Shown: in pieces, positions 24,798 through 60,653 of the stretch
Position numbering within the stretch: position 1 is the stretch's first letter
Layout of the letters: each line of letters begins with the position of its first letter
Source: Cornus controversa
Taxonomy: Eukaryota; Streptophyta; Magnoliopsida; Cornales; Cornaceae
Assembly: GCA_026545225.1 (NCBI GenBank)
Contig: CM048853.1
Location: forward strand, 54,393,755-54,457,754
Reading direction: 5' to 3'
Length of the DNA: 64,000 bases
Notes under the pieces: model-generated
The model's database searches: none
Told to the model about the DNA's origin: nothing
What the model saw: only the letters and a program-made list of their open reading frames with translations
Program-made: the position numbers and the translations under genes

Positions 24798-25604
24798 TCA
24801 TATATGGACGATGACCGGAGAAAGTAAAGGTCTGTCGGAGAAGAAAGCTTCTAAATTGGCCATAACAAGCTGGAATGCGGCGAAGAAAGATTCCTCAGTG
24901 AAGGCAGATTTATGTGGTAACATGACAACATTATCCAGTGCAAAGAGGTCTTTAGGAACATTGGGTTCATTCTCAAACACATCCAAGCCAGCACCACCAA
25001 TCTCTCCTTCCACCAAACATCGAACCAGTTCCTTCTCGTCGATGATAGCCCCGCGTCCGATGTTAACAATGACTCCATCTTTTCCCAATGCTGACATGAC
25101 TTGTTTGTTAATCATGTGGCGAGTTTGATCGTTTAGTTCACAACAAATCACAAGAACATCGCTGTTAGATGCAAGGTCACAGACATTAGGGTAATAGGGG
25201 TACGAGAGAGATGGTTTCATCTTCTTCTTCCTCGAGTTGTATGAGATGACGCAGCCAAAGGACTCGAGCCTTTTTGCAACTTCTGAGCCAATGCTTCCCA
25301 ATCCTACAATCCCAACTCGTTTGCCTCCCAACTAATATCATCATCAACCACAGGCCACGTGGAATGGAATTATTAGAAACAATTTTAAAAAGTTTAAAAT
25401 TTAAACATAGTAGGTGAAATAAAATGAAAAATTCATGCGCCAAACTCTCTTCTTACATGGGAATAAGCATGTTTTATAATATTATAACGACTTTGATTAT
25501 TATCGAATTTGATTGTTTAATCTATATTCAATTCGCGTCTAATAATTATGTAATTATTGTTAGAACTTTGAGATATTAAAGTATAATAATGAACTAAAAA
25601 AAAA

Positions 25605-25636
<32 letters not shown>

Positions 25637-26584
25637 GCCCTAATTACAGCCAGCATTAAACTAAAGAAATTTGTTACAAGGACCTCCCCTCTAACAGAAA
25701 TGGACTAACAGTGGTTAATTTTTGGGTGAAATGTCTATTATACCCTTATTAATATTATATTGATATATTTTATTTTATTAATATCACAACACTTGGATGT
25801 TAAATTTGACAAATCGAAGCTGAATTCTAAAAAACAGACTTCACAGTTGCGTCCGGAATGGTCCATTTAGCTAGGAACCAGTTTGAGTTGGTAAAAAATG
25901 GCCAAAATTAACTTCCCGGAAAGTTCGCCGGGAAAATGAAGGTGGCCGGAAATTTGCCGGAGAAGATGACCGGAACAGAGCAGCTCGCCGGAAAGTCGCC
26001 AGAGAAGATGACCGGAACAGAGCAGCTCACCGGAAAGTCGCCGGAGAAGATGACCGGAACAGAGCAGCTCGCGCGAAAATTCGCCGGAGAAGATGACCGG
26101 AACCGTGCAGCTCGCCGGAAATTCGCCGGAGAAGATGATCGGAACCCGTGAAAGTCGTCGGAAATTCGTCGGAGAAGATGACCGGAATAGTGCACATCGC
26201 CGGAGAAGATGACCGGAATAGTGTATATATATGTATATATATTATAATCTGAAATATATATATGTGCATATATATATATATAAGTTGATGGGCATTTTGG
26301 TCTTTTCAACTAAAATTTTTCACCAAATTAACGGAATTTTGGACGGAGGGGGTCTGGGTTATAACGGAGCAAACCTCAAGAGAGGTCATTGTAACAAAAT
26401 TCAATAGTTTGATACTGGGTGTAATTAGATCAAACCTCAGGGGAGGTCAGAGTAATTTACCCAAAAAAAAATTGGGAATCTAATTTTCCCAAAGAAAAGA
26501 TAAGTAGTACAAACGTATGGCACTACTAATTTGACACTTGAAAGGACAATGATATGTATAAATAAAAAATACAGGTGTGTGAAA

Positions 26585-26616
<32 letters not shown>

Positions 26617-27099
26617 GAAAGAGTAAAGTAATGTAGCGAAGACCTTGGAACCAAGAGGATAGTCGGCGACAGTAGGCCAAAGTCCACGGCGAACGAATCG
26701 ATCAGCAGCGGTGATTTTTCTCAGTACGTCGATCAACAGCCCGACAGCTATGTCAGCCACGTCTTCGGAGAAGGCACTTCCGGCGTTGGTGACGGCGATT
26801 CCTCGTCGCCGGCACTCCGGCAAGTCGATGTGGTTGACGCCGGCGCTGGCGGTGGCGACGAGCCGAAGCGCCGGGAGGTGGCGGATGATTTCGGCGGTGA
26901 CCGGACTCTTGCCGGAGCAGAGGATGGCCTTGACGGAGTGGGCCTGAGTGGTGAGGAAGAGGTGGGTGGAAAGTGTAGACTCCCAAGCTTTGAGAACTTG
27001 GAACTTTTTGGAGAATTCTTCTTGAAATTGTGTGAAAACCTCTGGTGGAAAGAGGACCAGGATTTGTGGGAGTTGTTCTTCCTGTTGTTGATTTGCCAT
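24798..27099 (-). CDS. Glyoxylate/hydroxypyruvate reductase, HPR3-like, copy A
   Basis: Two exons on the minus strand: 27099-26644 and 25331-24798, with donor TCCAAG|GTCTTC, acceptor ATTAG|TTG and a phase-0 junction; 329 aa. Translation from 27099 starts MANQQQ, as in copy B; an in-frame ATG at 27120 would add seven residues. It is a D-isomer-specific 2-hydroxyacid dehydrogenase. A substrate-binding half precedes the nucleotide-binding half GIVGLGSIG. The residues after the Rossmann strand (SYNSRKKK) suggest NADPH. The triad is Arg245 (NIGRG), Glu274 (DVFENEP) and His292 (LPHKS). The family reduces hydroxypyruvate, glyoxylate and, in some members, hydroxyphenylpyruvate, feeding photorespiratory bypass or phenolic-acid routes. 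No signal peptide or obvious targeting signal is seen. The C-terminus ends SPVIVHI rather than the SPVxDE-type end of most copies. The position next to URT1 matches Arabidopsis At2g45630. Confidence 0.9.
25606..26462. mobile_element. Mutator-type element with 9-bp A-run target duplication, in the copy A intron
   Basis: The left end GGGTAAATTACACTGACCTC matches the reverse complement of the right end, GGGTAAATTACTCTGACCTC; the similarity runs for about 40 bp. Runs of 9-10 A flank both ends, consistent with a 9-bp target duplication, though an A-run is weak evidence. Interior: GC-rich 42-bp tandem repeats and AT-rich tail. No transposase, so non-autonomous. Confidence 0.75.
25955..26225. repeat. 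42-43-bp minisatellite inside the Mutator-type element
   Basis: AGATGACCGGAAC-type units begin at 25964, 26006, 26048, 26091, 26133 and 26176, with a shorter unit at 26207. The GC-rich unit stands out in AT-rich DNA and produces a repetitive open frame on both strands, which I treat as a by-product. Confidence 0.9.
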
Positions 27100-29952: not shown

Positions 29953-32900
29953 TCACTCATCCATAACTGGAGAAAGTAAAGGTCTGTTAGAGAAGAAAGC
30001 TTCTAAATTGCCCATAATAAGCTGGAATGTTTCGAAGAAAGATTCCTCTGTGCGGGCAGCTCTATGTGGTAACATGACAACATTATCCAGTGCAAAGAGG
30101 TCTTTAGGAACATTGGGTTCATTCTCAAACACATCCAAGCCAGCACCACCAATCTCTCCTTCCACCAGACATCGAACCAGTTCCTTCTCGTCGATGATAG
30201 CCCCGCGGCTGATGTTAACAATGACTCCATCTTTTCCCAATGCTGACATGACTTCCTTGTTAATCATGTGTCGAGTTTGATCATTTAGTTCACAACAAAT
30301 CACAAGGGCATCGCTGTTAGATGCAAGGTCACAGACATCAGGGTAATAGGAGTATGAGAGAGACGCTTTCTTCTTCCTCGAGTTGTATGAGATGATGCAG
30401 CCGAAGGCCTCGAGCCTTTTAGCGACTTCTGAGCCAATGCTTCCCAATCCTACAATCCCAACTCGTTTGCCTCCCAACTAATATCCATCAAACACCACCA
30501 CTTCATCAAATGAGGAAAACAAATGTTGCATTAATTAGTCACTACAATGAGATCTACATACAACACTTAAATCACTTTTTCGTGCTGAATGCAATTGTAT
30601 CCTACCATATTGTAGACACCTGATATATCGACTCATGTAAATATTTGGACCAAAGGTCGAATGCAGATTATTTGTCATGTATTTAGCCAAGCATCATCCT
30701 TAGTTTCTGGTTCCCGCTAATATGCCAACATAAAAGCAATCACTTTGCTTAATAATGCATAATTATCTGCAATCCATCCATATTGAGACAAAAACTAGTT
30801 TCTTTTAGGAATATACAGATACCAATCATACCATACATGTATGTGCGGCATATATGCTATAGACATGTACACACATATATTCTTATTGTTTATTGTGATC
30901 AAGATATATATGGGATCATAATTTCTCTTAAGGAGCAGTGATGACATGGTTTCATTAAGGAATTTAACATTGACACACAGTGATTCTTACTTGTGCGATG
31001 ATACATTATCGGTTGATGACACTGATCCGGTGCAAGGAAGAATTTCTGCCAATTAAGAGGGTAGTCGGTGTTGATGGCCAAAACGTGCACATGTATAGAG
31101 GCCATGACCAGTATAAATTTGCCCATATTGGAAGGGGAAAAATGCAAAAAAACACTCCCAAGGTTCACATTTTGTGCACCTACCACCCTTACAGTTTTTA
31201 TTGCGTATACAAATTCTTATTGTTTTTTCAAATGTTCCAAACAAGGGCTTGCCGTCAGTGAACTAGTAGCAGATGACCGTACAGTCATGTGCATTGCACA
31301 TGACATATTTCACACCATGAAAACCAAAAAAATACCCTTTTCTCTCATTCAAAAATATTTTTAAACACATAATATATGTACATATGTACTTATATATACT
31401 CCCTCTCCCATTGCTCACTGGATATAAATATATATATATATATATATATTTTATTGATAGACTGTTGAGAGTAGGTACATTCAGAAGCTGCTTCCTTTAT
31501 ACCAATATGAAGAGTATCACAAAAGTCTATATTCACTCTCAACTTCAACCCAAGATTACACAAGGAATAACAATTTTGTTTGCACTACGAGGCAACCAAC
31601 TCAGCTTCAGATTTGGAGACTGGTTGAGAAGAAACTGGATGCCATTCTATATAGAAACAATAGACACACTGGGAGAAGACATTTCAATAACCTCTTTCAT
31701 CGTCATCATCTTTGCTTAATTACATATACATGGAGTCGGCCACATGAATTAGAGTTCATCAAAAATATTTAATTTAAGTTTTACTGTCGGTTGTCTACTT
31801 GACACTAACCAGCCTTTTTTTCACATATGGCTTTGGAGTACCGGTAATGGAAGAGTCAAGAATCTGAGTAGGTATGCATCACACGAACGTGACTTGGCGA
31901 CCAAGGACAAATGCACGAGTTGACATTACCGCCCAAACATGAAACAAACCAGCCCGCGCAACTTAGGTTGTTCTATGTAATAGGTTTTTTAAGGCATTGT
32001 TTGACAATGCCTCGTCTTTTTCAAGTCTTCGTTACGGGCAAATTCACGAGTAGGCCCTCATGTGCTTTGAAAGTGAAGGTTAAAAGGCTGTTTTCTACCC
32101 AAGAGGGGGATATATGCACCGTATGCATGTCATACGAGTAGAGTTCTACAATACTCTGAAAATTTCTTCCATATAAAACGTCATTTTTTATTTGAACAAT
32201 GCTACACGTCTCGAATAAATATCACAAATTTTAACTCGAATCTATGTGACATGTGATATAGTCCATTATTTTAGGAAATAAAATTAAATGGTAAGTTATT
32301 ATCGGTGGAATTCCCCACATACACGGAGTCCCTATGGTATTATCACCTGCCACATAGATTTGAGTTAAAATTTATGAAATAAAATTGTAACGTTTAACAT
32401 TTCTCTTTTTATTTTTATAAGAGATGATAGAAAATGGAGACTTTTACGAGATACATGATATTTAATAATTTTCTATATGGGAAATACACCATACAAGACT
32501 CCTATGATTCTATTATTTTGTTTTCCACACGAAGATTTACTCTGAAACTCTGATTGGTTATCCCATCCCAAATTTCAGGTCATATTTAATGTTTTCAATA
32601 GTCTAATTCATATACGAACATTTGATTTTTATTCCTTTTTTTAATAAAAAGAAGAAATATGTACCCGGACAGAAGTGTGAGACAAAAAAAATAATTTGAC
32701 ATGTCTACTTAATTTTGAGCAATGCTACACGTTATGAAAATATTTCCTGAATTTTTATCATAAATGATATGGCAATTAAACGGTGAGTTATTATTGGTGG
32801 GATTCCTTTCATATCCGGAGTCCTAATGGTATTATGACCCGCCACGTCATTCTTGATAGCAATTCATGATAAAATTTCATGAAGTTTAGCATTTCTCCTT

Positions 32901-33496
32901 AATTTTAGCCGGAAAAAATGTTATTGAGTTTGATACAATAATAATTTCACACGTGTAATATGTATGAATAATATTTGTGAGAAAAAAAAATAGTCCTAAA
33001 AAAGAAAAAGTTAACAAGTAATATAGGGAAGGGAAGGGAAGACCTTGGAACCAAGAGGATAGTCGGCGACGATAGGCCAAAGTCCACGGCGAACGAACCG
33101 ATCAGCTGCAGTGATTCTTCTCAGTACGTCGATCAACAGCCCGACGGCTATGTCAGCCACGTCTTCGGAGGAGGTATTTCCGGCGTTGGTGACAGCGATT
33201 CCCCGCCGCCGGCACTCCGGCAGGTCGATGTGGTTGACGCCGGCGCCAACGGTGACGACGATCCGAAGAGTCGGGAGATGGCGTATGACATCGGCGGTGA
33301 CAGGAGCTCTGCCGAAGCAGAGGATGGCCTTGACGGAGTGGGCCTGAGTGGTGAGGAAGAGGTGGGTGGAAAGTGGAGACTCCCAAGCTTTGAGAACCTG
33401 AAACTTTTTGGAGAATTCTTCTTGAAAGTGTGTGAAAATATCTGGTGGAGTGAGGACCAGTAGTTGTGGGAGTTGTTCCTGTTGTTGATTTGCCAT
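29953..33496 (-). CDS. Glyoxylate/hydroxypyruvate reductase, HPR3-like, copy B
   Basis: Two exons: 33496-33044 and 30477-29953 (minus strand), joined in phase 0 at the same site as the other copies; 325 aa. It starts MANQQQEQLPQLLV and is the closest relative of copy A in the window. It has the nucleotide motif GLGSIG, Arg242 (NISRG, where most copies read NIGRG), Glu271 (DVFENEP) and His289 (LPHRA). The intron is 2.57 kb and carries two Mutator-type MITEs. As with copy A, hydroxypyruvate and glyoxylate are the likely substrates, and the SYNSRKKK stretch suggests NADPH. I see no disabling change, so it is probably functional. Copies A and B share 3' flanks, so the pair arose by tandem duplication. 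Confidence 0.9.
30478..32193 (-). other. Intron of reductase B, proximal part
   Basis: AT-rich intron sequence with a TA run at about 31424-31449. Several short open frames on both strands have no recognisable motif. Confidence 0.6.
32194..32405. mobile_element. Mutator-type MITE, copy 2
   Basis: 212 bp starting GAACAATGCTACACG and ending AACATTTCTC, flanked by a perfect 9-bp duplication TTTTTATTT (32185-32193 and 32406-32414). It lies in the copy B intron. The interior is more diverged than in copies 4 and 5. Confidence 0.8.
32717..32897. mobile_element. Mutator-type MITE, copy 3
   Basis: 181 bp starting GAGCAATGCTACACG and ending GCATTTCTC, flanked by a perfect 9-bp duplication CTTAATTTT (32708-32716 and 32898-32906). 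It lies in the copy B intron, about 310 bp from copy 2. Confidence 0.85.
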
Positions 33497-35070: not shown

Positions 35071-35079
35071 TTTTATATA

Positions 35080-35988: not shown

Positions 35989-36040
<52 letters not shown>

Positions 36041-36477: not shown

Positions 36478-36514
<37 letters not shown>

Positions 36515-39070: not shown

Positions 39071-41690
39071 ATGGCGTACACAGAACAATCACAACAGCAA
39101 GTGCCCAAAGAGCTTCCGAAGGTTTTGGTTCTTCGCCCACCAAATATTTTCAATGTTTATGGAAAACAATTATCAGAAAAGTTCCATTTGTTGAAAGCAT
39201 GGGAATATTCGATGCCCACTGACCAATTCCTCGCAACCCATGCCAGTTCTGTGCAAGCCATGCTATGCTCCGGCGGCACTCCGGTCCCCGCCGACCTCCT
39301 CGGCCGCCTCCCATCACTCAGGGTTATCGTCACCACCAGCGCCGGTCTCAACCACATCGACTTGCCGGAGTGCCGCCGCCGCGGAATCTCCGTCGCCAAC
39401 ACTGGAACCATCTACTCCGCCGATGTGGCTGACACGGCGGTCGGACTGTTGATTGATGTTCTGAGAAAAATCACGGCCGGTGATCGGTATGTTCGTGGTG
39501 GGCTTTGGCCGATCCAAGGAGACTACCCTCTTGGTTCCAAGGTCCCCTCTGTCTCTCTCTCTCTCTATACATATGTACATATAAAAAAGTGTTTACACAG
39601 TCACACACATATATATTGAATTAGGGTTCTTGAAAGAAGTTGTTTTTTATCTCTAATTATGACTGCAGGGTAGTGTTTTTCTTTAAAATTGTGGAAATTG
39701 TGCTCTCTAGTCTCCAGATTTAGCTTTTTAAGTGTCTGAAATTAGTTCTACCGAAGAAACATGTTTCATTGCTATATACGTCCTCCACTCCAAAATTGTT
39801 GTACCTCTCATTTCAGCTTCTTTTAAGTTGTCTTCCTTTTTAAAAATTTAAAACTATCCCTTTATAGTTCAGTTAGTTAGGATGACTATGTGCAGGTAGA
39901 GGATATTTTGTAAAGTATATAATTGTTTCACATTAACTTTTCAAGTGAAAATAAAACTTAGAATGGAGTAACAATTACCAGATAATGCGTCTGGTCTTTT
40001 TATTTTTTATGTTTTTGGGTTCTAAAGAAAAAGGAAACATTTGTATAACAATGGGTGTTTAGGCTTGTGTTTGGTTTGTCTTGTCCAAAGATTTTGGTTC
40101 TTTTTTTTATATATATACAATGGTGGTGTGAGTCTTAGAGCACCCAATAATAGGGATGCATGGTAAAACACACTCCTCTGTCATGTACCTGCCTCACCCC
40201 GTTTAAAATGATTTTGGGGGCGGATTTTAGGAGTGAAAACCTTGAGGGTGCATGTCGGGGACGGGGGAGGTCACCTTCCTTTGCCCCTCCCCGTTTATAT
40301 TGAGAATTGATCATTTTACTCTTAAAAATTATAATCTTCTCATTACTGGAATCATTAGAAGAATGTAATTTGTATAGTTAACTTTGGTATGTTAGAAGCT
40401 TTTCAAACATATCAATGTTAATATTATTTGATTTGAAAGAATGTTTATTTGATTTATATTTTTAAATATGACTTTTTAAACGGGGATGAGAATAGAAATG
40501 GGGAAGGGACCTCATCCCAAACCAGTCCCGTTGCTAAACGGTTTTGGGCAGAGATGGGGTGGTAAACTTAAATTGGGTGCCCCACCCCAAACCCACCCTG
40601 TCGCCGTCCCTACCTAATAATCCATCACCAAATACATGTAGTCTCCCATTCACATGCACTAGGTAATGTGGCAAATTCCCTGAGGGTGGCCCCCAAGAGG
40701 ATTCAAACTCATAGCTTGCAAAATGTGAGGCGAAACCCTTGTCATTAAGTTATGAGCAATGCTACACATCATGAAATTATTTCATGAATGATATGACAGG
40801 TAACGTGGAGAGTTAGTATTGATGGGATTCCCCCATACACAAAGTCCCATGATATTATCACCGAATCCCACCAATACTAACTCTCCACGTTACCTGCCAC
40901 ATCATTCATGATAAAATTCATGAAATAATTTCATGACGTTTAACATTTCTCTTAAGTTATACCTCTTTAGATTCAAAAAAAATTATCACAAATTTTGATA
41001 TTGTGTATATTATGTGTATATATTACCATTTTGAACTTCCCAGTGTATTTAACTTTTTGGGCAGTATTCTTATTAGGTAATTGTTACCAAGAACCTATAG
41101 TGGTTAACGAGGAACTATTATTTGTTTCCTAAATTGATTTGAGTGATGGTGATTGATGATTTCAGTTGGGAGGCAAGCGAGTTGGGATTGTTGGACTGGG
41201 AAACATTGGCTTACAAGTTGCAAAGAGGCTTGAGGCCTTTGGCTGCACAATCTCATATAATTCGAGGAAGAAGAAACCATCTGTCTCCTTCCCTTTTTAT
41301 CCTGATGTCTGTGAACTCACAGCTAATTGCGATATCCTTGTCATTTGCTGTGCATTAACTGACCAAACACGTCACATGATTAACAAGGAAGTGTTATTGG
41401 CATTGGGAGAGGAGGGAGTCATTGTTAACATCGGACGTGGGGCTGTTATCGATGAGAAAGAACTCGTAGGGTGCTTGGTGCAAGGAAAGATTGCTGGTGC
41501 TGGCTTGGATGTGTTCGAGAATGAGCCTCAGATTCCTAAAGAGCTCTTTGCATTGGATAATGTTGTGTTATCGCCCCATCGAGCTGTCTTTACAGACGAA
41601 TCTTTTCTTGATTTATATGAACTTATATCGGGGAATTTTGAAGCTTTCTTCTCTGATAAACCTTTACTTTCTCCTGTGGTAGATGAATGA
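39071..41690 (+). CDS. Glyoxylate/hydroxypyruvate reductase, HPR3-like, copy D
   Basis: Two exons, 39071-39541 and 41166-41690; donor TCCAAG|GTCCCC, acceptor TTTCAG|TTG, phase 0; 331 aa. It begins MAYTEQSQQQV, the group-two start shared with E and G and, in shorter form, F. The nucleotide motif GLGNIG is at 167-172. The triad is Arg248 (NIGRG), Glu277 (DVFENEP) and His295 (SPHRA). The SYNSRKKK stretch after the second Rossmann strand favours NADPH. It is expected to reduce hydroxypyruvate/glyoxylate-type 2-oxoacids; which substrate each copy prefers cannot be told. The 1.62-kb intron contains a SINE relic with a hAT-type MITE inside it and a Mutator-type MITE at its edge. It looks intact. Confidence 0.92.
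40138..40753 (-). mobile_element. tRNA-derived SINE relic in intron D, split by a hAT-type MITE
   Basis: Read on the minus strand, the relic starts near CTTAATGACAAGGGTTTCGC (A-box-like), continues with a B-box-like GAGTTTGAATCC, then GGGGGCCACC. Related sequence occurs at comparable positions in introns E, F and G. The copy is interrupted at 40151-40612 by another element. Boundaries are approximate. Confidence 0.6.
40151..40612. mobile_element. hAT-type MITE inside the SINE relic of intron D
   Basis: 462 bp from TAGGGATGC to the complementary right end GCCGTCCCTA. The flanks CCCAATAA (40143-40150) and CCTAATAA (40613-40620) match at 7 of 8 bases; 8-bp target duplications are typical of hAT elements. 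The uninterrupted SINE in intron F shows what the empty site looks like. Confidence 0.75.
40754..40951. mobile_element. Mutator-type MITE, copy 4
   Basis: 198 bp, almost entirely one long inverted repeat: GAGCAATGCTACACATCATG at the left pairs with GAGAAATGTTAAACGTCATG (reverse complement of the right). A perfect 9-bp duplication TTAAGTTAT flanks it (40745-40753 and 40952-40960). Intron F contains the uninterrupted site (ATTAAGTTATACC), which confirms insertion. Confidence 0.92.
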
Positions 41691-42748: not shown

Positions 42749-43262
42749 TCATTTAAAAATTTGAATTTGAATTCTTTTATGGCCAACGTGACTTCTAACT
42801 TTTCCAATAACAATTATACCCTTATCATGTAAATCAACTAATTTCAAGGTACAAGTCCAAAAGTTGTAAGGACTTTAATTGATATGATTTAATTGGTTTG
42901 TGGGTTCTGAGTCTTCTAAGTCCAAGAATAGAGCTTTCATGCAAAACGCTTCCAAAATTACTTTACGTTAAATTCTAGCTCTCACGAGAGGACTGTGCTA
43001 TCCAAAATCTTGATCTTGATCTTGAGTTCCTTCATCACATGGCTTAAATTCAATTTGAATTTTGTCATTAATCTTGAATATTTTTTTGAGTTTTGAAGTA
43101 AAATTTGATTAACACAAATTCAAGTAGAATATTAAATCAATACTTTAATAGTTTGATGTTATCAAAATTTCTCAAAATGCCCTTTGATTGAAATATTGAA
43201 GTCAAAGGCTATTTTATGAAAATTTAGTTAAAAGAATGAATGTTTTAAGATAATTTTAGAAT

Positions 43263-43472
43263 GAGAAAGGCTAAACGTTATGAAATTATTTCATGAATTT
43301 GTATCATGAATGATGTGACAGGTAACGTGGAGAGTTAGTATAGTGGGATTCAGTGATAATATCATGAGACTGTGTATGGGAGAAATTCCACCAATATTAA
43401 TTCTCCACGTTACTTGCTACATCATTCATGATACAAATTCATGAAATAATTTCATGACATGTAACATTGCTC
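43263..43472. mobile_element. Mutator-type MITE, copy 5
   Basis: 210 bp from GAGAAAGGCTAAACG to AACATTGCTC with long complementary arms. The flanks TTTTAGAAT (43254-43262) and TTTTAAAAT (43473-43481) match at 8 of 9 bases. Confidence 0.85.
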
Positions 43473-43909
43473 TTTTAAAATATTTGTATAAAAATTTTCT
43501 ATTTTTGAATTTGTTGAGAAATGTTTTATTAAGACAGTATTAGACACCTCAAAGAGTAATGATAGACAGACCGATTGGACTTAGTCCGATTTTTGTTTTA
43601 TGTGAGTAGAGTGGTGGACCACACACATGACATTATCATGACATCATGTGATGGGACCCACCACCCCCACTCACTTCAAAAAAAAATATCGAAAATATCA
43701 TTACTCCACCTCAAAATGTATCCAAAAAAAAATATCATACATTGCCATTTCGTAATTCATGATCCACGTCATGAAATTTCTTTCATGATGCTTATCATTG
43801 TAAGCAACTCTAACCCTCCTGCGCTCTCTCTCTCTCTTGGCCCACATTCACAAGGATGAGAAAATAAAGTTGGTAACCATTTATCTCCCTCCAATGAAGT
43901 AAGGATTTA

Positions 43910-44103: not shown

Positions 44104-46097
44104 ATGGCGTATACAGAACAATCACAAGAACAAGAGCCCAAAGAGCTTCCAAAGGTGTTGGTTTTTGATCCACCAAATGTTTTGTCAGTCTATGGAAAAC
44201 AATTATCAGAAAAGTTCCAATTGTTGCAGGCATGGGAATCTCCGATGCCCATCCACCAATTCGTGGCAACCCATGCCGGTTCAGTGCAAGCCATGCTGTG
44301 CTCCGGCCGCAAAACGGTCCCCACCCACGTCCTTAGCAGCCTCCCGTCTCTCAGGGTCATCGTCACCACCAGCGCCGGCCTCAACCACATCGACATGCCG
44401 GAGTGCCGCCGCCGGGGAATCTCGGTCGCCAACACCGGTACCGTCTACTCGGCCGATGTGGCTGACACGGCGGTCGGACTGTTGATTGATGTTGTGAGAA
44501 AAATCACGGCCGGTGATCGGTATGTTCGTGGTGGGCTTTGGCCGATGAAAGGAGAATACCTTCTTGGTTCCAAGGTCCCCCCTCTCTCTATCTCTATACA
44601 TGTATGTGTGTGTATAATATGTACACAATCACACACACACACGTACTGAATTATGATTCTTGAAAGAAGAAGTTTTTGATCTCTAATTAGGACTGCAGTA
44701 TATTGTTTAGCTTCTTTAAATTTTCAAAATTGTTGTCCTCTGATTTCAGCTTCTTTTAAGTTGTCTTCCTTTTTTAAAAATTATCAAATATGTTTCAAGG
44801 CATTCTTTTATGCTTGCCCAGTGATAATGTCTCTTTTTTTTCTAAAGAAAAAGGAAACATATGTGGTGTTCAAGCTTGGGTTGGTTTGTCTTGAATGGAG
44901 TCCTTTGTCAAAAGATTTTTGTTGTTTTTTCTTTTTGTCTATGATGGTGGTGTCTAGTAGATTGGAATGATTTGGACACATATGTCGGAACTTAGAGTGG
45001 TGTTGGTGAACCGAGAAGATTAGTTATAATAGAAAGTAATAGACAAAGAGGGTGACCAAAAATAATATAGAATGATGTTATTAAAAATGACTTTAAAATG
45101 TTAAATATGGTAGAGAAAATAGTCTAATAGAAAAGATTAGAGAGAGAGAATTCATGTGTCCGACCCATTGATATGGAACTAAGGCAAGGATGATGATGGT
45201 GGTGGTGGTGGTGGTGGTGGTAGTGGTGTCAGTCTCTTAAAGCACACTATGACCCACCACCAAGTACACATCGAGACCATTCACATGCACCAAGCAAGGC
45301 AGAAATTTTCCTATAAAGGTGGCTCCGGATTCGAATTCTCAACTTCCAAGATATGAGGTGAAAGCCTTATTACATCTTGAGATTCAAAAGAATCCATCAC
45401 AAATTTTGATATTGTGTATGTGTGTATGCCACCATTTTAGACTTGTAATAATTACCACTCTATTTAACTTTTAGGCAGTAAATCAAGTATTAATTTGTTA
45501 CTATAGTGGTTAATGAGGAGCTGCTATTATTCTTCCTAACTTGATTTAAGTGATTGTGATTCATGATTTCAGTTGGGTGGCAAGCGAGTTGGGATTGTTG
45601 GACTAGGAAACATTGGTTTAGAAGTTGCAAAAAGGCTTGAGGCCTTTGGCTGCACAATCTCATACAATTCAAGGAAGAAGAAATCATGTGTCTCCTTCCC
45701 TTTTTATCCTGATATCTGTGAACTAGCAGCTAATTGCGATATCCTAGTCATTTGCTCTGCATTAACTGACGAAACACATCACATGATTAACAAACAAGTC
45801 TTACTAGCACTGGGAGAGGAGGGAGTGATTGTTAACATCGGACGTGGGGCTACCATCGATGAGAAAGAACTTGTCCGGTGTTTGGTGCAAGGAAAGATTG
45901 GTGGTGCTGGCTTGGATGTGTTTGAGAATGAGCCTCAACTTCCTAAAGAGCTCTTTGCATTGGATAATGTTGTCTTATCACCCCATCAAGCTGTCTATAC
46001 GGAGGAATCTTATCTGGATTTATATGAACTTGTCTTGGGGAATTTGGAAGCTTTCTTCTCTCACAAACCTTTGCTTTCTCCTGTTGTCGATGAATGA
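44104..46097 (+). CDS. Glyoxylate/hydroxypyruvate reductase, HPR3-like, copy E
   Basis: Two exons, 44104-44574 and 45573-46097, phase-0 junction, 331 aa. It starts MAYTEQSQEQEPKE. The nucleotide motif is GLGNIG (167-172). The catalytic set Arg248, Glu277 and His295 is intact, with His in SPHQAVYTEES (Gln where most other group-two copies have Arg). Other copy-specific residues are NIGRGATIDEKE and SALTDETHHMIN. The intron is the shortest of the array (998 bp) and contains only the SINE relic and a GGT microsatellite, so E is closest to the ancestral intron layout. Its 3' flank resembles that of copy F. Expected role as for copy D; cofactor probably NADPH from SYNSRKKK. Confidence 0.92.
45190..45230. 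repeat. (GGT)n microsatellite
   Basis: GAT/GGT trinucleotide run in the copy E intron, next to the SINE relic. Confidence 0.9.
45232..45375 (-). mobile_element. tRNA-derived SINE relic in intron E
   Basis: Minus-strand sequence with B-box-like GAATTCGAATCC followed by GGAGCCACC, comparable to the relics in introns D, F and G at the same intron position. Diverged, with approximate ends. Confidence 0.5.
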
Positions 46098-48881: not shown

Positions 48882-51800
48882 ATGGCATACACACAACAAG
48901 TGTCCAAAGAGCTTCCAAAGGTGTTAGTTCTTGACCCACCAAATGTTTTCGATGTCTATGGAAAACAACTATCGGAAAAGTTTCAATTGTTGAAGGCATG
49001 GGAATCTCCGATGCCCACTCACCAATTCCTCGCAACCCATGCCACTTCACTGCAAGCAATGCTGTGCTCCGGCCACACTCCAGTCCCCGCCAACGTCCTT
49101 AGCCGCCTCCCGTCTCTCAGAGTCATCGTCACCAGCAGCGCCGGTCTCAACCACATCGACTTGCCGGAATGCCGCCGTCGGGAAATCTCCGTCGCCAACT
49201 CCGGAAACGTCTGCTCGGCCGATGCGGCCGACACCGCGGTCGGACTATTGATTGATGTTCTGAGAAAAATCACTGCCGGTGATCGGTATGTTCGTGGTGG
49301 GCTTTGGCGGATCCAAGGAGACTACCCTCTTGGTTCCAAGGTCCTCTCTCTCTCTCTCTCTCTCTCCAAGTACGTTACATGTATGTGTGTAATTAGGACT
49401 GCAGGGTATTGTTTAGCTTCATTAAAATTGTGTGGATTGAGCTCTAGTATCTTGATTTAGCTTTTTTTGTGTTCGAAATTAGTTCTAGTGTCGCATTGCT
49501 GTATACTTCCTCCATTCCAATTCCAAAATGGTTGCCCCTCTAATTTCAACTTCTTTTTAAGTTGTATTCGGTTCTGTTTGATCAAACTGAAAATTAATTA
49601 AGTACTGGAATTTTTAAGACTGAATTTTAATTATGGAAGTTTTTAAGTGGTAATTAAAATATAAATATATATTTTTTAATTTTTAGCATTCAGTGATAAG
49701 TGATTCCTTGTCACTTAAAAATTTATCTTATTTTAAATAGTGTTGAATTAAGTGTTGAATTGAGTTATCAAACAACACATTTCTTTTAAAATTTTAAACG
49801 TTTGAATAACTATTTTTAGTTTGAATTTTTTTTGTAAAGTATATAATAGTTTCACATTAACTTTGAGACAAGAATTTTGAAACAACAAAAATGGAAAAAA
49901 AAAACTTAAAATGGCCAAATAATTACCAAATATGTTTCAAGACGTTCTTTTATGCTTTAGAATATAACCTAGAATGGCAAAAAACAAAAACAAAACAGAT
50001 AATTTAGAAAAATATAAAAATTAAAAAGTGAAGGGAAGAATGTGGTAAGTTAAAAGAAATTGCACTAATAGTGCGTTTGAAAAATTGGGTACAAAGGAAG
50101 GTGAAAAAGATATTTATAAATTAGCAAAAAATAGAGATAAGTTGACTAGGGATATGGATCAAATTTGATGCTTTGAGGATATAGATCAAAAGATTTTAAT
50201 TAAAGACACTGGACATAAAATAGATGGAAATAATATTTTCAATAACTTTTGAACGAGAACATTCTAGAGAAGAAAGTGCATTCGATGAACATAATATGAA
50301 AATGATAAATAGGGTCAATAAGAGAGAAATAGAGGATGTGCTTAAAAAGATGGGTAATTCCGATAGAAGTTTAGAGAACTTTAGGAAATGTGGGAATAGA
50401 TTGGCTAACAAATTTATTCAATAAAATATTAAATGAAAGAACAATACCCACTGAATGGAGAAAAAATACATTTGTCCCTATATACAAAATTAAAGGTGAT
50501 ATACAAAACTGTAATAATTATCAGGGAATAAAATTAATGAATCATACAATGAAATTGTGGAAAAGGGTTATAGAACAAAGAGTAAGAAATGAAACTATAG
50601 TGATCGAAAATCAATTTGAATTTATGTTAGAGAGATCTACTATTGAGGCCATTTACTTACTTAGACAATTGATAAAAGAATGTAGAAGTAAGCAAACACA
50701 CCTACACATGATTTTTATAGACTTAGAGAAGACATATAATAGATTGCCAAGGGATATAATCTTGATGGGCCTTACATAGAAAATGATAGAGTCCCAAGGG
50801 ATATAATTTTGGTGGGCCTTACATAGAAAATGATGTCTTTTTTTTTTTTTAAGAGAGAGGAAACATATGTATAACAATGGGTGTTCAGGCTTGTGTTTGG
50901 TTTCTCTTTGAGTGGATTCCTTTGTCAAAAGATTTTGGTCTTTTTTTTTTCTTTTTCCCTTTTGTACAGTGTCTAGTCTCTTCAAGCACTCAATAATCTA
51001 TAACCAGATACATGAAGTCGCACGTTCAGATGCACTAGGTAAGGCGGGAAATTCCTAAGAATGGCCCCAAGAAGATTCAAACTCACAACTTTCAACATGT
51101 GAGATGAATGCCTTGCCATTAAGTTATACCTCTTTAGATTCAAAAGAATTTATCAAAAATTTGTATATATTTACTAATTTGACTTCTGTAGGGGTTCTTT
51201 TATTGATAACAGTAAGAATATATATAATAAATGGGTAGTCAACACAACTATGAAGGAGCCAGAGAGTATCCAGACCAGAGGGGAAACAATTAGAGCTAGT
51301 TAATGGGGAAGATAGTGAGGGTAGGTCCTTGCCTTGCCATTGTCACAGAGTTCTCTATTTATAGAAAGTCGTTGATCTCGGGTTACCCTAGGCGGGTCGA
51401 GAGTGTTTAGGTCATGAGTACCCTAAACACCTAACGTGTCACCTCCTTTCTTTTGCATTAAATGCCTTCAGACATCCTTTAGCGGCGGTAGTTGGCTACA
51501 TTAATTACTCTTCGTCAGAGCATTAATGGTGATGGTAAGAGTCTCTGTTATGGCAAAGCATCGCTCACTGTTCCACTAACTAGTCCCCCTTGATTTGGTT
51601 GGGCTTCCTCTATCGTTCATCCTCCAATCCAAAACCCTTCTGGTATCCCGTTTGGACCCTATTACATGGTTGCAAGGGCGGGACCTACCGATCCCTAACC
51701 TTGTCGAGCTGTAGGGTTCGTTCGTTCGTTCGTATGCGAGAATGTTCTCGTATATTTAATGTTTGTGTGCGATGCCTGAGAGATAGGCCCCAAGGCTTTG

Positions 51801-53493
51801 GTGACTGTGCTCGAGGGATGGACCTCAAGACTTTATTGACAGTGCTCGAGGTACATTCCCCAGGGCTTTCTTGTCAGTGCTCGAGGTATGGTCCTCGAGG
51901 CCCTACTGATAGTCCTCAAGGTGTGGTCCCCGAGGCTTTGTTGATAGTGCTCGAGGTGTGGTCTCGAGGCTTCATGGATAGTGCTCGAGGTGTAGCCCTC
52001 GAGGCTTTGTTGACGGTGCTCGAGATATAGATCTCGAGGCTTTATTGACAGTGCTCGAGGTACATTCCCCAGGGTTTTCTTGTCAGTGCTCGAGGTATGG
52101 TCCTCGAGGCCCTACTGATAGTGCCCGAGGTGTGGTCCCCGAGGCTTTGTTGATAGTGCTCGAGGTGTGGTCTCGAGGCTTTATGGATAGTGCTCGAGGT
52201 GTAGCCCTCGAGGCTTTGTTGACGGTGCTCGAGATATAGATCTCGAGGCTTTATTGATAGTGCTCGAGGTGTAGCCCTCGAGGCTTTGTTGACGGTGCTC
52301 GAGGTGTGGTCTCGAGGTCTTTATTGATAGTGCTCGATGTGTAGCCCTCGAGGCTTTGTTGACGGTGCTCGAGATATAGATCTCGAGGCTTTATTGACAG
52401 TGCTCGAGGTGTAGCCCTCGAGGCTTTGTTGACAGTGCTCGAGATATAGGTCTCGAGGCTTTATTGATGGTGCTCGGGGTGTAGCCCTCGAGGCTTTGTT
52501 GACAGTGCTCGAGGGATAGCCCTCGAGGTTTTGTTGGCAGTGCTCGAGATATAGCCCTCGAGGCTTTATTAACAGCGCTCGAAGTGTAGTCCTCGATGAC
52601 CTGAACTGTAGCATTAGGGCGGTGCAGTTTCGAAGGCTTTAGATGATGATTTTTTATCAATGGGCTTGGGCCATTACGTCTGAAGGGTGGGCCTAAGAGC
52701 TCAATCCGTGGTGCTCGAGGCCTTAGGATATAGGCCTTTTTTTACTCGTGACGTGGTTGCCAAGTTGGCATAGGTTGACTTGTCAAACTTCCTTTCAAGT
52801 TCTGTATTGACACCCACAACTTCTAATTACCACTCTATATAACTTTTTTGGCAGTATTATTATTAGATAATTGTTACCAAGGTGACTATAGTGGGTTAAT
52901 TAATGAGGAGCTGCTATTATTTTGCTAATTTAATTTGAGTGATGATGATTCATGCATGATTTCAGTTGGGAGGCAAGCGAGTTGGGATTGTTGGACTAGG
53001 AAACATTGGCTTAGAAGTTGCAAAGAGGCTTGAGGCCTTTGGCTGCACAATCTCATACAATTCAAGGAAGAAGAAACCATCTGTCTCTTTCCCTTTTTAT
53101 GCTAATGTCTGTGAACTCGCAGCTAATTGTGATATCCTTGTCATTTGTTGTGGATTAACTGACCAAACACATCACATGATTAACAAACAAGTGTTATTGG
53201 CATTGGGAGAGGAGGGAGTCATTGTTAACGTCGGACGTGGGGCTACTATTGATGAGAGAGAACTCGTTCGGTGTTTGGTGCAAGGAAAGATTGCTGGTGT
53301 TGGGTTGGATGTGTTTGAGAATGAGCCTCAGGTTCCTAAACAGCTCTTTGCATTGGATAATGTTGTCTTATCGCCCCATCGAGCTGTGTATACGGAGAAT
53401 TCTTTTCCGGATTTATATGAACTTATCTCGGCGAATTTGGAAGTTTTCTTCTCTGATAAACCTTTACTTTCTCCTATTGTTGTGGATCAGTGA
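48882..53493 (+). CDS. Glyoxylate/hydroxypyruvate reductase, HPR3-like, copy F
   Basis: Two exons, 48882-49340 and 52966-53493, phase 0, 328 aa. The N-terminus MAYTQQVSKELPK is four residues shorter than in D and E. The nucleotide motif GLGNIG is present and the triad Arg244 (NVGRG), Glu273 (DVFENEP) and His291 (SPHRA) is intact. It carries several changes at positions constant in the other copies: CRRREIS for CRRRGIx, SADAADTAV for xxDVADxAV, and GLWRIQGDY for GLWPxxxxY. The reading frame is open, so it may still work, but constraint may be relaxed. The intron is the longest (3.6 kb) and holds an RTE-like LINE fragment, a SINE relic and a probable solo LTR. The C-terminus reads SPIVVDQ. Confidence 0.88.
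49566..49788. mobile_element. Small inverted-repeat element (MITE-like), second copy
   Basis: The left end CTGTTTGATCAAACTGAAAA and the reverse complement of the right end GTTGTTTGATAACTCAATTC are related to the element at 42294-42512. In intron F. Confidence 0.5.
50020..50800 (+). mobile_element. RTE-like LINE fragment (reverse transcriptase remnant)
   Basis: Translated pieces match the pattern of plant RTE-type LINE reverse transcriptases: EWRKNTFVPIYKIKGDIQNC, NNYQGIKLMNHTMKLW, ENQFEFMLERSTIEAIYLLR and MIFIDLEKTYNRLPRDII. The upstream part (REIEDVLKKMGN) is in another frame, so there is a frameshift near 50390. Several family-typical residues are changed and no endonuclease domain is present: a dead 5'-truncated copy. 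About 45 bp at its 3' end is duplicated (about 50746-50835). Confidence 0.8.
50969..51133 (-). mobile_element. tRNA-derived SINE relic in intron F
   Basis: The least disturbed of the four related relics. On the minus strand it starts GTATAACTTAATGGCAAGGC (A-box-like), has GTGAGTTTGAATCTTC (B-box-like), then GGGGCCATTC and CTAGTGCATCTGAACG. A- and B-box spacing fits a tRNA-derived head. Confidence 0.6.
51187..52818. mobile_element. Probable solo LTR (1.6 kb) in intron F
   Basis: It begins TGTAGGGGTT and ends GACACCCACA, giving TG...CA ends and a short TGTRGG inverted repeat. It is flanked by the perfect 5-bp duplication ACTTC (51182-51186 and 52819-52823). Intron G has the uninterrupted site (GGACTTCTAATTACC). 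A TATA-like CTATTTATAG lies near 51354. There is no internal gag-pol sequence, so it is a solo LTR or a similarly reduced element. It carries a long minisatellite. Confidence 0.8.
51785..52600. repeat. 35-bp minisatellite with a 209-bp higher-order period inside the solo LTR
   Basis: About 23 units of the type TGCTCGAGGTGTAGCCCTCG plus AGGCTTTGTTGACGG. Each unit contains paired CTCGAG motifs able to form a hairpin. The segment starting at about 51833 recurs at about 52042, a higher-order period of 209 bp (six units). Open frames across it are repetitive and not considered genes. Confidence 0.9.
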
Positions 53494-55613: not shown

Positions 55614-56243
55614 GAGTAAAGTACAAAAAACACCCATACTATATACCAAATATGCAAAAAACTCTTGTAGTACAAAAAAAACCCTCACTGTTTACAAAAT
55701 GTGCAAATAAGGACATTTTGTCAATTTAACAACTAAAATGTCTAAAACACCCTTACACTCTAATGTCATATTTGAATGTCCAAAAAAGGCTCATCCGAAT
55801 ATTAATTTCTTATTTATTTAAAAAAAATGTGTGAATACTAAATTATTTTTACTCATTGAGCCTAGCTGAAATAATAAAATAATTAAAATACAGTATATTT
55901 TTAGTTAATATAAAAATAAAAAATAAATTTTTTTTTTTGGAAGTTAAAGCAATACTCACACACACTGCCTCCACCGAGGCTTGAACCCTGGACCTCCTAT
56001 TTGAAAAATCAGAGTTTATACCGTTAGACCAATTGGTCTTTGATAAAAGTAGGAAATATTGCATCCAAACATGGCATGAGAGTTTTAAAGGTTGTGAGGG
56101 CTTTTGGTCATTTAAAAGGAAAATTTTGACAAAGAGGGTGTTTGCACAGATTATAAAAGTGCAGAGGGTTATATGCACATAATAAATTGCGGATTTTTTT
56201 TTTCATATTTTGTATATAACGGGGTGTTTTTTGCACTTTAGCC
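55614..56243. mobile_element. Mutator-type element, 630 bp, perfect 9-bp target duplication
   Basis: The left end GAGTAAAGTACAAAAAACAC and the reverse complement of the right end GGCTAAAGTGCAAAAAACAC form the inverted repeat. The flanking AATAAAAAA is repeated exactly (55605-55613 and 56244-56252). There is no transposase. It contains a tRNA-like SINE head. Confidence 0.8.
55936..56046 (-). mobile_element. tRNA-like SINE head nested in the Mutator-type element
   Basis: The minus strand reads GACCAATTGGTCTAACGG (A-box-like TGGTCTAACGG), then GGTCCAGGGTTCAAGCC (B box GGTTCAAGCC) at tRNA-like spacing. The arms do not form a full cloverleaf by eye, so I call it a tRNA-derived SINE piece, not a tRNA gene. 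Confidence 0.55.
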
Positions 56244-56539
56244 AATAAAAAAAAGAAAAGAAAAAAAAAGGGATAAGGACAAAATTAAAATTCACTTGTT
56301 TGGTTGGTTGAGGGTCTAAAAACTATTTTTTTAAAAATCAATGAGAAAAATATTATTTTTCAGTTTTTTTGGCAAAAAGATCCAAAACTCCCTTATAGTT
56401 TTAAAAAGGTACAATAAACTCTCATATGCTATATTTGGGACAATACCACACCCTCTCACTTATAAAATTGAGCAAAGTATTCCCTTTTACACATATTGTC
56501 CTTGTCTATGATTATTTTATCCTTTTCATTATTAAAAAA

Positions 56540-57090
56540 AATAAAAAAAGGGTTTTTTTTATATTAAGTTTTTTTTTACCTTAATAAAAAAAATGAGTTT
56601 TTTCTGGAAAAACTTTTTTCGAGAAAAAAAACTAAAAATGCACAATTACATAATAAAAATTTTTGATTTTTTTTTTGATTTTTTGAAAAAAATTTCATTA
56701 GAAAGAGAGGAGTTTTTTTTATATTAAGTTTTTCTTTATCTTAATAGTAAAAAATATATATATATATTTTCAAAAATTATTTCCGAAGAATTCTCTCTTT
56801 TTCTAATGAAAAAAGTTCCGGAAACAATTTTTCAAAAACAAAAAAAAAAAAGAAAATTTTTATTAAGTAAGTTTGCATATTCAGTTTTTTTCTTTGAAAA
56901 TTATTTTTTCCAAAAAAAATTCTTTTTTTTATTAAGGAAAAAAAATTTAATATAAAAAAACTCCTCTCTTTCTAATAAAAAAATTTCTGAAAAACAAAAA
57001 GGTTGTAAAAAATTTTATTATGTAATTGTTCAGTTTTAGTTTTTTTTTTTATTAAAGTAAAAAAAAATAATATAAAAAATCTCTCTTCTA
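56540..57090. repeat. Foldback-like imperfect palindrome, A/T-rich
   Basis: The segment 56698-56745 (ATTAGAAAGAGAGGAGTTTT...) is the reverse complement of 56932-56976 with few differences. The outer pieces ACAATTACATAATAAAA (56641-56657) and its complement near 57008-57030 are arranged symmetrically. The whole would fold into a long hairpin centred near 56835. The ends are not defined. Confidence 0.7.
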
Positions 57091-57329
57091 TTCATTATTT
57101 TTTATTTATTATATTAATAAAAGGTTAAAATCGTCGTTGAAAAGGAAAATGTCAAGAAAATTACCTTTTCATATCTCTTTGTTGGTCCAGACAAGAAAAT
57201 CAGGTTGGTGACCGCTTTATGTCCCCTCAAAACCAATCCAATATTTTTCTCTCTCTCTCAAATGAAGTTATGATTTGATTTTCCTATTTTTTTGGTATGA
57301 GAAAGATATATATATATATTTTCTCTTGT

Positions 57330-57459
57330 ACGACCCTACTTTTGGGTAATAAAATAGTGTAGAAATCTGAAACCCTCTCTATAAGTCAAATTGATGCTTT
57401 CAATTCCAACAATTGAGCTACTCCTTACTAATTCTCAGTTCTCAGCAACCAAATCGACC
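57330..57459 (+). promoter_or_regulatory. Shortened proximal promoter/5' leader of reductase G
   Basis: It keeps the CGACCCTACTTTTGGG and GTGTAGAAATCTGA pieces and the leader ending AAATCGACCATGG. The middle part present in D, E and F (CAGAGAAAATATA to TCCATTCAA, about 65 bp) is missing. CTCTATAAG at 57377-57385 could serve as a TATA element. Confidence 0.5.
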
Positions 57460-60400
57460 ATGGCGTACACAGACCAATCACAACAAGAAGTTGCCAATGA
57501 GCTTCCAAAGGTGTTGGTTCTTGGCCCACCAAGTGTTTTCAAAGTCTATGGAAAACAATTATCAGAAAAGTTCCAATTGTTGAAAGCATGGGAATCTCCG
57601 ATGCCCACTCACCAATTCCTCGCAACCCATGCCACTTCAGTGCAAGCCATGCTGTGCTCCGGCGACGCTTCGGTCCCCAATGACGTCCTCAGCCACCTCC
57701 CTTCTCTCAGGTTCATCGTCACCACCAGCGCCGGCCTTAACCACATCGACTTGCCGGAGTGCCGCCGCCGGGGAATCTCTGTCGCCAACGCCGGAACCAT
57801 TTTCTCGGCCGATGTGGCTGACACCGCGGTCGGACTGTTGATTGATGTTCTGAGAAAAATCACGGCCGGTGATCGGTATGTTCGTGCTGGGCTTTGGCCG
57901 ATCCAAGGAGAATACCTTCTTGGTTCCAAGGTTCCCTCTCTCTCTAACTCCATACATATATAAATGTGTGTGTATAGTGTACACACACAGTCACACATAT
58001 ATATTGAATGATGATTCTTGAAAGAAGTTTTTGATTTCTAATTAGGACTGCAGGGTATTGTTTAGCTTCTTTAAAATTGTGGAGATTGTGCTCTAGTCTC
58101 CAGATTTAGCAGAGCTTACCTAGTGTTTGAAATTAGTTCCAGTAAAGACACATATTCATGCTAACCAAATGCATGCTAGAATTTTGATTTTCATTTCCTT
58201 CACTTTACTTTTTCTTTCGATGGTCGTGTTCAATCTCTTAGAGCACCCAATAAACCACCACCGAGTCCATCCAGTCCCCCCATTCCAATGCACCATGCAA
58301 GGCGAAATATTCCCTGAGGGTGGCTCCAAGAGGATTCGAACTCCCTGAGAGTTGTGCAGTGTGGAAGTGGTGTGAAATGTTTGATTTTAGAAGGAAGATC
58401 CAGAGGAGTGAATAGGTCTAGCTTGTTCTTTTGATTGATTTTCATATTATTTTAATTTTTATCAAATTAAAACTAAATCAACCACAAAAAAGAATAAATA
58501 ATGTGCAGTAAAGTAAGTGATGACACTAGGCTTTTATTTTAATTTTTATCAAATTAAAACTAAATCAACCACAAAAAAGAATAAATAATGTGCAGTAAAG
58601 TAAGCGATGACACTAGGCTTTTTTAACGTGAAAATCTAGGAAGGTAAAACCACAAAGACTAGTCGTCTTGGGTGAAACAATCCATAATGATGAGAAAGAG
58701 TACAACAAGTTCTAGTGCATTTGGAACTGCTCCCCACATGAGTCTATGATCCAGTGCCTTCGTAGTCACCTGTCGTTGATTTACCTCCGGCGCTTAGTGT
58801 CCTTCAATCCCAGTGCCTCTAGAACCACCAACAATGCTGATCCATGCCAATGCAACCACCTCACGATGATCTGCTTCTCCAAGTGATTAAACTCGCCTTC
58901 CTATCACTCACAGAACATGAAGATGAAGGAATAAAAATCTTGTTGTCCTGATCAACCAAGATGAATTGTAGAAAGTTTCAGATGTCGTTGATCAGATAGA
59001 GCACATAACCCTAATATCACGCACGTGAAATAGTGTCTGCTCTCAAAGAAATAAAAACACTCAAAAATATCAAAGACGGTTTTTCTCTCAAAAGTTCTGA
59101 TTGTGAAAAATAATCCGTGTCTCTGTGTTTTGTAAAGAGATGGAGAAAAGAGGAGTTTTTATGGACAAGAGAGTCCAAATAAAAGTGGTAAAAAATGTTT
59201 TTAAATCTCATTGGATGTCCCTAGAAGCTTAATTGAAAAAGGAGTTCAAATCTTATAAAAAAAGGGACAACTTAGGAGTAACCATGACAAGTCCTACCTA
59301 TTGGAATTTTTCCAACCGGTTGGATTCTGCAGAGTTGAGAAACCAAGACCTATTGGACCGTTTGAACTTTTTCCAACTGCTTGGACGCACTGGGAACCTT
59401 TTTCCCCAAGTCTATGTAGATGGTCTGACTTTCTGGACTTTGTTGACGGATTAGACAAACTCAAAATTAAGCAAATAATATATCGTTGGAAAACTTATCG
59501 AGTCTAGTTTCCGAACATATAAAAGATCATCTCAAAAGTCTAAGTGTGGAGTGAGATATTTCAGAAATAAAACAGGTAAGTCAGAATCGGACTGAATACA
59601 ACACCCTATGCTGGTATTGATTCAAATCCCATTCACCTTATGTTTCAGGGTTATGAAAAACATATTTTGACTCTAAAATTTTTTTTCAAAACAAGTGTAT
59701 TCACACTCACTTACCTTCACTAAGTGATGTTCAAATCTGATCAACGGTGTTGAGGCACTTGTTGTTCAGCTCCAATGATCACGACTCATAGTAAACATAA
59801 AATTTCAACCCGATTAACACGTTTTGATACCGAAATTTGCCAACACAAAATAAAGTTTCTCTCATTCCCAACTTGCAAGATGTAAAGTGTAAGCCTTGCC
59901 ATTAAGTTATACCTTTTGCGATTCAAAAGAATTTATCACAAATTCTGATATTGTGTATATGTGCATATATTAATATTATTTGGACTTCTAATTACCACTC
60001 TATTTAACTTTTTGGCAGTAAATCAAGTATTATTCATAGATAATTGTTATCAAGTGACTATAGTGGTTAATGAGGAGCTACTATTCTTTTCCAATTTTAA
60101 TTTGAGTGATGGTGATTAATGATTTCAGTTGGGAGGCAAGCAAGTTGGGATTGTTGGACTAGGAAGCATTGGCTTAGAAGTTGCAAAGAGGCTTGAAGCC
60201 TTTGGCTGCACAATCTTATACAATTCAAGGAAGAAGAAACCATCTGTTTCCTTCCCTTTTTATTCTGATGTATGTGAACTCGCAGCTAATTGCGATATCC
60301 TTGTCATTTGTTGTGCATTAACTGACCAAACACATCACATGATTAACAAGGAAGTGTTATTGGCATTGGGAGAGGAGGGAGTCATTGTTAACATCGGACG

Positions 60401-60653
60401 TGGGGCTATTATCGATGAGAAAGAACTCATTGGGTGTTTGGTGCAAGGAAAGGTTGCTGGTGCTGGCTTGGATGTATTTGAGAATGAGCCTGAGGTTCCT
60501 AAAGAGCTCTTTGCATTGGATAATGTTGTGTTATCGCCCCATCGAGCTGTATTTACAGAGGAATCTTTTCTGGATTTATATGAGCTTATATCGGGGAATT
60601 TGGAAGCTTTCTTCTCTGATAAACCTTTACTTTCTCCTGTTGTGGATGAATGA
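57460..60653 (+). CDS. Glyoxylate/hydroxypyruvate reductase, HPR3-like, copy G
   Basis: Two exons, 57460-57930 and 60129-60653, phase-0 junction, 331 aa. The open frame extends upstream to an ATG at 57394 (22 extra residues), but the start at MAYTDQ is chosen because D, E and F begin there in the same ACCATGGC context. The nucleotide motif reads GLGSIG (group-two neighbours have GLGNIG). The triad is Arg248, Glu277 and His295 (SPHRAVFTEES). GGKQVGIVG replaces the usual GGKRVGIVG, and ILYNSRKKK replaces ISYNSRKKK. The intron (2.2 kb) holds a SINE relic split by a 1.5-kb insertion. Its 3' flank resembles that of copy D, not F. It looks intact; role as for copy D. Confidence 0.92.
58225..59915 (-). 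mobile_element. SINE relic in intron G split by an unclassified 1.5-kb insertion
   Basis: SINE-like sequence occurs at 58225-58342 (GGTGGCTCCAAGAGGATTCG) and resumes at about 59858-59915 (AACTTGCAAGATG, then GCCATTAAGTTATACC). About 1.5 kb between them has no counterpart in introns E and F, so it is an insertion. I could not find convincing terminal repeats or a coding domain. Confidence 0.5.
58449..58622. repeat. Tandem duplication of an 87-bp unit
   Basis: The unit with TTTAATTTTTATCAAATTAA and GTGCAGTAAAGTAAG recurs 87 bp later, apparently with a single difference (AAGTGATG versus AAGCGATG). It lies inside the intron G insertion; a recent event. Confidence 0.85.

Follow-up and report, generated by a model that had tools for sequence, protein, structure and literature searches.

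In Arabidopsis, the HPPR clade is formed by HPPR2, HPPR3, and HPPR4, the latter two of which belong to group II (PMC6133988). The study of this clade reports that HPPR3 (At1g12550) prefers hydroxyphenylpyruvate; with HPPR4 (At2g45630), turnover of hydroxyphenylpyruvate and phenylpyruvate was below detection and that of hydroxypyruvate minimal, the promoter gave a weak signal or none that could be detected, and the green fluorescent protein (GFP) result was cytosolic (PMC6133988). A later paper on Actaea, which prints the gene number as At1g45630, repeats that HPPR4 is rather inactive (PMC10978636). A further source counts three HPPR genes in Salvia miltiorrhiza and four each in Arabidopsis and Prunella; the word "tandem" does not occur in the passages concerned (PMC11094360). 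Grape Vv2KGR, a solved protein of the same family, reduces glyoxylate, pyruvate, hydroxypyruvate, and 2-keto-L-gulonate. Here, we analyzed a stretch of 64,000 nucleotides from Cornus controversa (assembly GCA_026545225.1, contig CM048853.1, positions 54,393,755 to 54,457,754 of the forward strand; hereafter the window), in which positions 24798–60653 harbor six intact two-exon D-2-hydroxyacid dehydrogenase genes, termed A and B on the minus strand and D to G on the plus strand, together with an exon-1 relic, C, on the minus strand.

We propose with moderate confidence that an HPPR-clade gene expanded locally to form this array, and that this gene was most probably HPPR4 (At2g45630 type), a member of angiosperm group II. 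The expansion is real but of an ordinary sort: plants often carry metabolic genes in tandem arrays, and copy number alone is therefore unsurprising. No tandem or expanded array of HPPR or HPR genes in a plant was described in the literature searched, which comprised titles and abstract openings with few subscription journals and is thus weak evidence.

Results

The gene models of the six intact copies were obtained by joining exon 1 to exon 2 from a six-frame reading and splicing. On the minus strand, copy A (24798..27099) is composed of exon 1 at 27099–26644 and exon 2 at 25331–24798 and encodes 329 aa, and copy B (29953..33496) of exon 1 at 33496–33044 and exon 2 at 30477–29953, encoding 325 aa. 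The plus strand carries copy D (39071..41690; exon 1 39071–39541, exon 2 41166–41690; 331 aa), copy E (44104..46097; exon 1 44104–44574, exon 2 45573–46097; 331 aa), copy F (48882..53493; exon 1 48882–49340, exon 2 52966–53493; 328 aa), and copy G (57460..60653; exon 1 57460–57930, exon 2 60129–60653; 331 aa). Product length is thus confined to 325–331 aa (n = 6), and each gene is interrupted by a single phase-0 intron of 998–3625 nt at the same junction, with GT following …LGSK and AG preceding LGGK in 6/6 copies. Since six open frames of ~330 codons coexist with pairwise ratios of nonsynonymous to synonymous substitution rates (dN/dS) of 0.22–0.41 over the whole coding sequence, the array is more than chance. 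Beyond the seven sites, a tblastn search of the whole window with all six proteins revealed no convincing further copy (best other match E = 0.034).

The seventh site, relic C (~36442–36022, minus strand), was delineated by tblastn and nucleotide identity and consists of a frame-broken exon 1 only. Its similarity switches frames in tblastn, stretches are missing compared to A and B, and no exon 2 was found by tblastn over the whole window. With a nucleotide identity of 76.2% to A and 75.3% to B, compared to 63.9–65.6% to D–G, the relic falls on the A/B side, while its exact place within the minus arm has a tree support of just 51.

The intact copies form two arms that are transcribed away from each other. 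Protein identity amounts to 87.7% between A and B and 82.9–87.9% within D–G, compared to 64.4–69.8% between the arms; likewise, the synonymous divergence (dS) is 0.16 for A–B, 0.17–0.26 within D–G, and 0.70–0.85 between arms. All trees carrying support values split the arms with a support of 99–100. An earlier note, made from the letters of this DNA, had described six two-exon genes with one phase-0 junction, two divergently oriented sequence groups, a broken exon-1 copy, and intact catalytic residues. All four claims are borne out, the last by the conservation of Arg232, Glu261, and His279 in 6/6 copies (residue numbers follow Coleus HPPR throughout).

The branching order within the plus arm depends on the data used. 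A grouping of D with G is backed by 13 of 22 informative split sites, with a support of 89 in the exon 2 tree and 68 for both exons, and is unsupported by the exon 1 tree. A codon-model tree of both exons, which carries no support values, instead joins E with F, followed by D; the protein tree of 18 sequences supports D+G with 50 and E+F with 63. Sites at which one plus-arm copy alone has the A/B base number 12 for E, 4 for D, 1 for F, and 3 for G, which fits an early branching of E or some conversion. Judged from orientation and divergence, the simplest history would be one old inverted duplication that gave rise to the two arms, followed by tandem duplications within each, yielding A, B, and the dead C on one side and D, E, F, and G on the other.

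By sequence, we assign the copies to the plant HPPR clade (GHRB). Of the six copies, G and A were scanned; each contains the Pfam domains 2-Hacid_dh_C and 2-Hacid_dh, and no NCBIfam model reached the cut-off for either of them. Among the PDB matches listed, Coleus HPPR (3BA1/3BAZ) and grape Vv2KGR (6PEX) are the closest solved proteins and the only ones from plants, scoring ~100 bits above the next: the plant proteins reach 305.6 bits with copy G and 312.5 bits with copy A, compared to 197.6 and 207.4 bits for bacterial relatives. A tree of 18 proteins, in which these two and ten bacterial proteins serve as 12 comparison proteins, unites the six copies in one group (support 100) and places them with Coleus and grape against the bacterial proteins (support 88). 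When bacterial and archaeal genome contigs were searched by pattern for copy G relatives, eight loci emerged, all with bacterial titles, which served solely as outgroups and motif controls; the same kind of search in viral contigs found none.

In related structures, Ser174 and Arg175 contact NADPH, and Arg154 provides another cofactor contact (PMC6827314). Both Ser174 and Arg175 are kept in 6/6 copies. Docking of 2-keto-L-gulonate into Vv2KGR places Asn52, Ser53, Phe74, Ser282, and Arg288 among the surrounding residues (PMC6827314). All five are changed in 6/6 copies, namely to Ser at position 52 (Phe in B), Gly at 53, Thr, Ser, Ala, or Val at 74, Val or Ala at 282, and Phe or Tyr at 288; copy B, in addition to Phe at 52, has Arg at 283. 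For GHRB, a Gly-Ser motif in the βG-α5 loop is linked to the highest hydroxypyruvate activity, and Arg-X-X-Met, present in most members, probably blocks larger substrates; a fungal mandelate dehydrogenase displays Phe-His-Glu-Phe at the latter position (PMC6303947). In the window copies, the Gly-Ser loop is replaced by Ala-Val (D–G), Ala-Ala (B), or Ser-Ala (A), and Arg-X-X-Met by FLDL (D, G), YLDL (E), FPDL (F), FFAA (A), or FFET (B). Thus, Ser282 occurs in 0/6 copies compared to 10/12 comparison proteins, the full Gly-Ser in 0/6 compared to 8/12, and Arg-X-X-Met in 0/6 compared to 9/12; of the three comparison proteins without it, one has a gap there. Because the pocket lacks these markers of hydroxypyruvate preference and of small substrates, the copies would be expected to turn over hydroxypyruvate poorly and to accommodate a bulkier, hydrophobic 2-oxoacid. 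Further, the C-terminal SKL, as in peroxisomal HPR1, is absent in 6/6 copies, which together with the GFP result for Arabidopsis HPPR4 suggests a cytosolic location.

Selection was assessed by the private changes of each copy, comparing single-nucleotide codon changes with the neutral expectation and excluding multi-change codons (E 4, F 2, B 1, D and G none). Nonsynonymous (N) changes fall below neutral in D (12 N and 13 synonymous (S) changes, p = 0.008), E (14 N, 13 S, p = 0.019), and F (15 N, 16 S, p = 0.004), as well as in the single-change differences between A and B (26 N, 25 S, p = 0.0007; multi-change codons excluded). Consequently, most comparisons show moderate purifying selection, and there is no sign of diversifying selection. 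Copy F may be weakening, as it accounts for 7 of the 17 private departures found among the copies at columns where Coleus HPPR, Vv2KGR, and the remaining five copies are invariant. A faster amino-acid change in exon 1, a candidate prompted by the E–G pair (omega 0.81), was dropped on the private-change counts.

Upstream of the start codon, similarity extends over ~140 nt between A and B and ~190–245 nt among D, E, and F. Copy G resembles D, E, and F over ~65–95 nt and has an extra piece of ~100 nt in common with F. Between the arms, no match links the immediate upstream regions of two genes (E cut-off 1e-4, low-complexity sequence filtered); the upstream matches listed there correspond by position to exons of neighboring copies or to stretches also present in introns. 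As the upstream regions of the arms share no joining match, the arms may differ in expression.

Several introns carry repeats. The 3625-nt intron of copy F is repeat-laden, with a reverse-transcriptase (RVT_1) fragment at 50375–50776 (plus strand) and a minisatellite with nested periods of 35, 70, and 209 nt at 51793–52596. A near-perfect 87-nt tandem duplication is present in the intron of copy G (58447–58622), and direct repeats with a spacing of mostly 42–43 nt in that of copy A (25905–26230). A dispersed short repeat family occurs at 9742–9934, 32714–32906, 40889–40960, and 43230–43505, with 61–86% identity to reference copies; two of its members reside inside the introns of B and D, and the copy at 43230–43505 is an inverted repeat resembling a miniature inverted-repeat transposable element.

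The array is embedded in a set of genes that bears on its identity. RLCK XI kinases carry an insert in the kinase domain and have four Arabidopsis members, including At2g45590 (PMC9992409); URT1 is At2g45620, and nine HESO1 paralogues have been reported (PMC4415760). In the window, Pfam identifies a protein kinase gene at 2976..5048 (plus strand) with an RLCK XI-like 290-aa insert at 3765–4634, between DFGLAR and APEY, followed by two Abhydrolase_3 genes on the plus strand (11518–12558 and 14303–15259, span 11518..15262). A terminal uridylyltransferase (TUTase)-like gene comes next (16897..24166, plus strand; TUTase domain in the exon at 19000–19407, outer limits set by eye), which lies tail to tail with copy A, its end 0.6 kb away, and to the right of the array lies a piece of a Glycosyl transferase family 8 gene (62906..63616, minus strand). 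The order is thus RLCK XI-type kinase, two Abhydrolase_3 genes, TUTase gene, and reductase array. We take the Arabidopsis order from At2g45590 to At2g45630 to be RLCK XI kinase, two carboxylesterases, URT1, and HPPR4, where the carboxylesterases At2g45600 and At2g45610 are presumably the equivalents of the two Abhydrolase_3 genes and the TUTase-like gene presumably resembles URT1 in particular. Domains and gene order fit this Arabidopsis segment, and the neighborhood, as read from Pfam domains and the measured insert, suggests the HPPR4 locus (At2g45630) over HPR3/HPPR3 (At1g12550), a strong lead short of proof. The label "HPR3-like" given by the earlier note is therefore doubtful, At1g12550 being another group II gene elsewhere.

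Discussion

In the expanded HPPR4-type locus that we favor, the products would be cytosolic, NADPH-preferring reductases that convert a bulky or hydrophobic 2-oxoacid to the D-2-hydroxyacid by hydride transfer. Arg232 would hold the carboxylate, and the His279–Glu261 pair would supply the proton. Expression would vary among the arms and copies, as perhaps would the size of the pocket. HPPR4 is little studied and without a known substrate in the literature consulted (PMC6133988, PMC10978636). Since the Cornus locus keeps six intact genes that are probably of the HPPR4 type, it offers a better chance of finding this substrate than the single, weakly expressed and nearly inactive Arabidopsis gene, and the pocket changes predict little hydroxypyruvate activity together with acceptance of bulkier 2-oxoacids.

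A number of observations weigh against this assignment. Its placement at the HPPR4 locus derives from a neighborhood read from domains and not from a tree with group II sequences, and with four RLCK XI genes and nine HESO1 paralogues, neither neighbor alone fixes the locus. Arg154, the cofactor contact in Coleus HPPR, is replaced by Ser or Asn in 6/6 copies. Positions 52, 53, and 74 are hardly informative, as two bacterial proteins have Ser-Gly at 52–53 and Phe74 is missing in 5/10, and the losses of the Gly-Ser and Arg-X-X-Met motifs may be common to all of group II. Selection is likewise uneven: the private changes of copy G (8 N, 5 S) display no significant departure from neutral (p = 0.27), those of A alone (3 N, 2 S) and B alone (3 N, 4 S) are too few to judge, and exon 1, the substrate-binding half, changes no faster than exon 2 (23 N/23 S compared to 26/24 over D–G, Fisher p = 1.0).

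One specific form of the favored explanation, in line with the specialization suggested in the earlier note, holds that the copies are HPPR3-like reductases of aromatic 2-oxoacids (4-hydroxyphenylpyruvate or phenylpyruvate) that feed tyrosine-derived phenolics. HPPR3, also a group II member, prefers hydroxyphenylpyruvate, but HPPR4, probably the gene of the matching locus, is reported as inactive on both aromatic acids (PMC6133988). As the replacement of Arg-X-X-Met, with either Phe or Tyr occupying position 288, is reminiscent of the Phe-His-Glu-Phe in a fungal mandelate dehydrogenase (PMC6303947), we regard this form as possible, albeit doubtful. That the array encodes lineage-specific, functionally diversified reductases for a 2-oxoacid outside the plant assay tables of PMC6133988 and PMC6827314, with pockets and substrates differing between the arms and in copy B, appears somewhat unlikely.

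An expansion for dosage, in which cytosolic hydroxypyruvate/glyoxylate reductases back up photorespiration, would agree with the shared family, with Ser174 and Arg175 in common with Coleus HPPR and Vv2KGR, and with the part in photorespiratory metabolism that is ascribed to HPR3 of Arabidopsis (PMC6303947). The loss of Ser282 and Arg-X-X-Met in 6/6 copies and the minimal hydroxypyruvate activity of HPPR4 (PMC6133988) render it distinctly unlikely. Mostly non-functional drift, with weakly expressed tandem copies heading for loss as C already is, would account for one relic among seven copies, for the share of copy F in the private changes at otherwise invariant columns (7 of 17) and its 3.6-kb repeat-laden intron, for the lack of a significant departure from neutral in G and in A and B singly, and for the weak or undetectable promoter activity of HPPR4 in Arabidopsis (PMC6133988). 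This possibility is unlikely in view of six open frames with intact splice sites and catalytic residues and of nonsynonymous changes below neutral in D, E, F, and the A–B comparison.

The favored expansion of an HPPR4-type gene is best seen next to its described relatives. Arabidopsis HPPR4 belongs to the HPPR clade and apparently has the same neighbors in the same order; a single Arabidopsis gene contrasts with at least six intact copies in two arms here. HPR3/HPPR3 (At1g12550) shares the HPPR clade and, with HPPR4, group II (PMC6133988), but occupies a different locus and is itself active on hydroxyphenylpyruvate. Coleus blumei HPPR (3BA1/3BAZ) is 46–49% identical to the copies, with the same catalytic triad and with Ser174 and Arg175 next to the phosphate of NADPH. 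In contrast to the six copies, in which all five positions are altered, this group I-type enzyme has Asn52, Ser53, Phe74, Ser282, and Arg288. Finally, Vv2KGR (6PEX), of the same family and 45–48% identical to the copies, retains both the Gly-Ser loop and Arg-X-X-Met that the Cornus reductases have lost.

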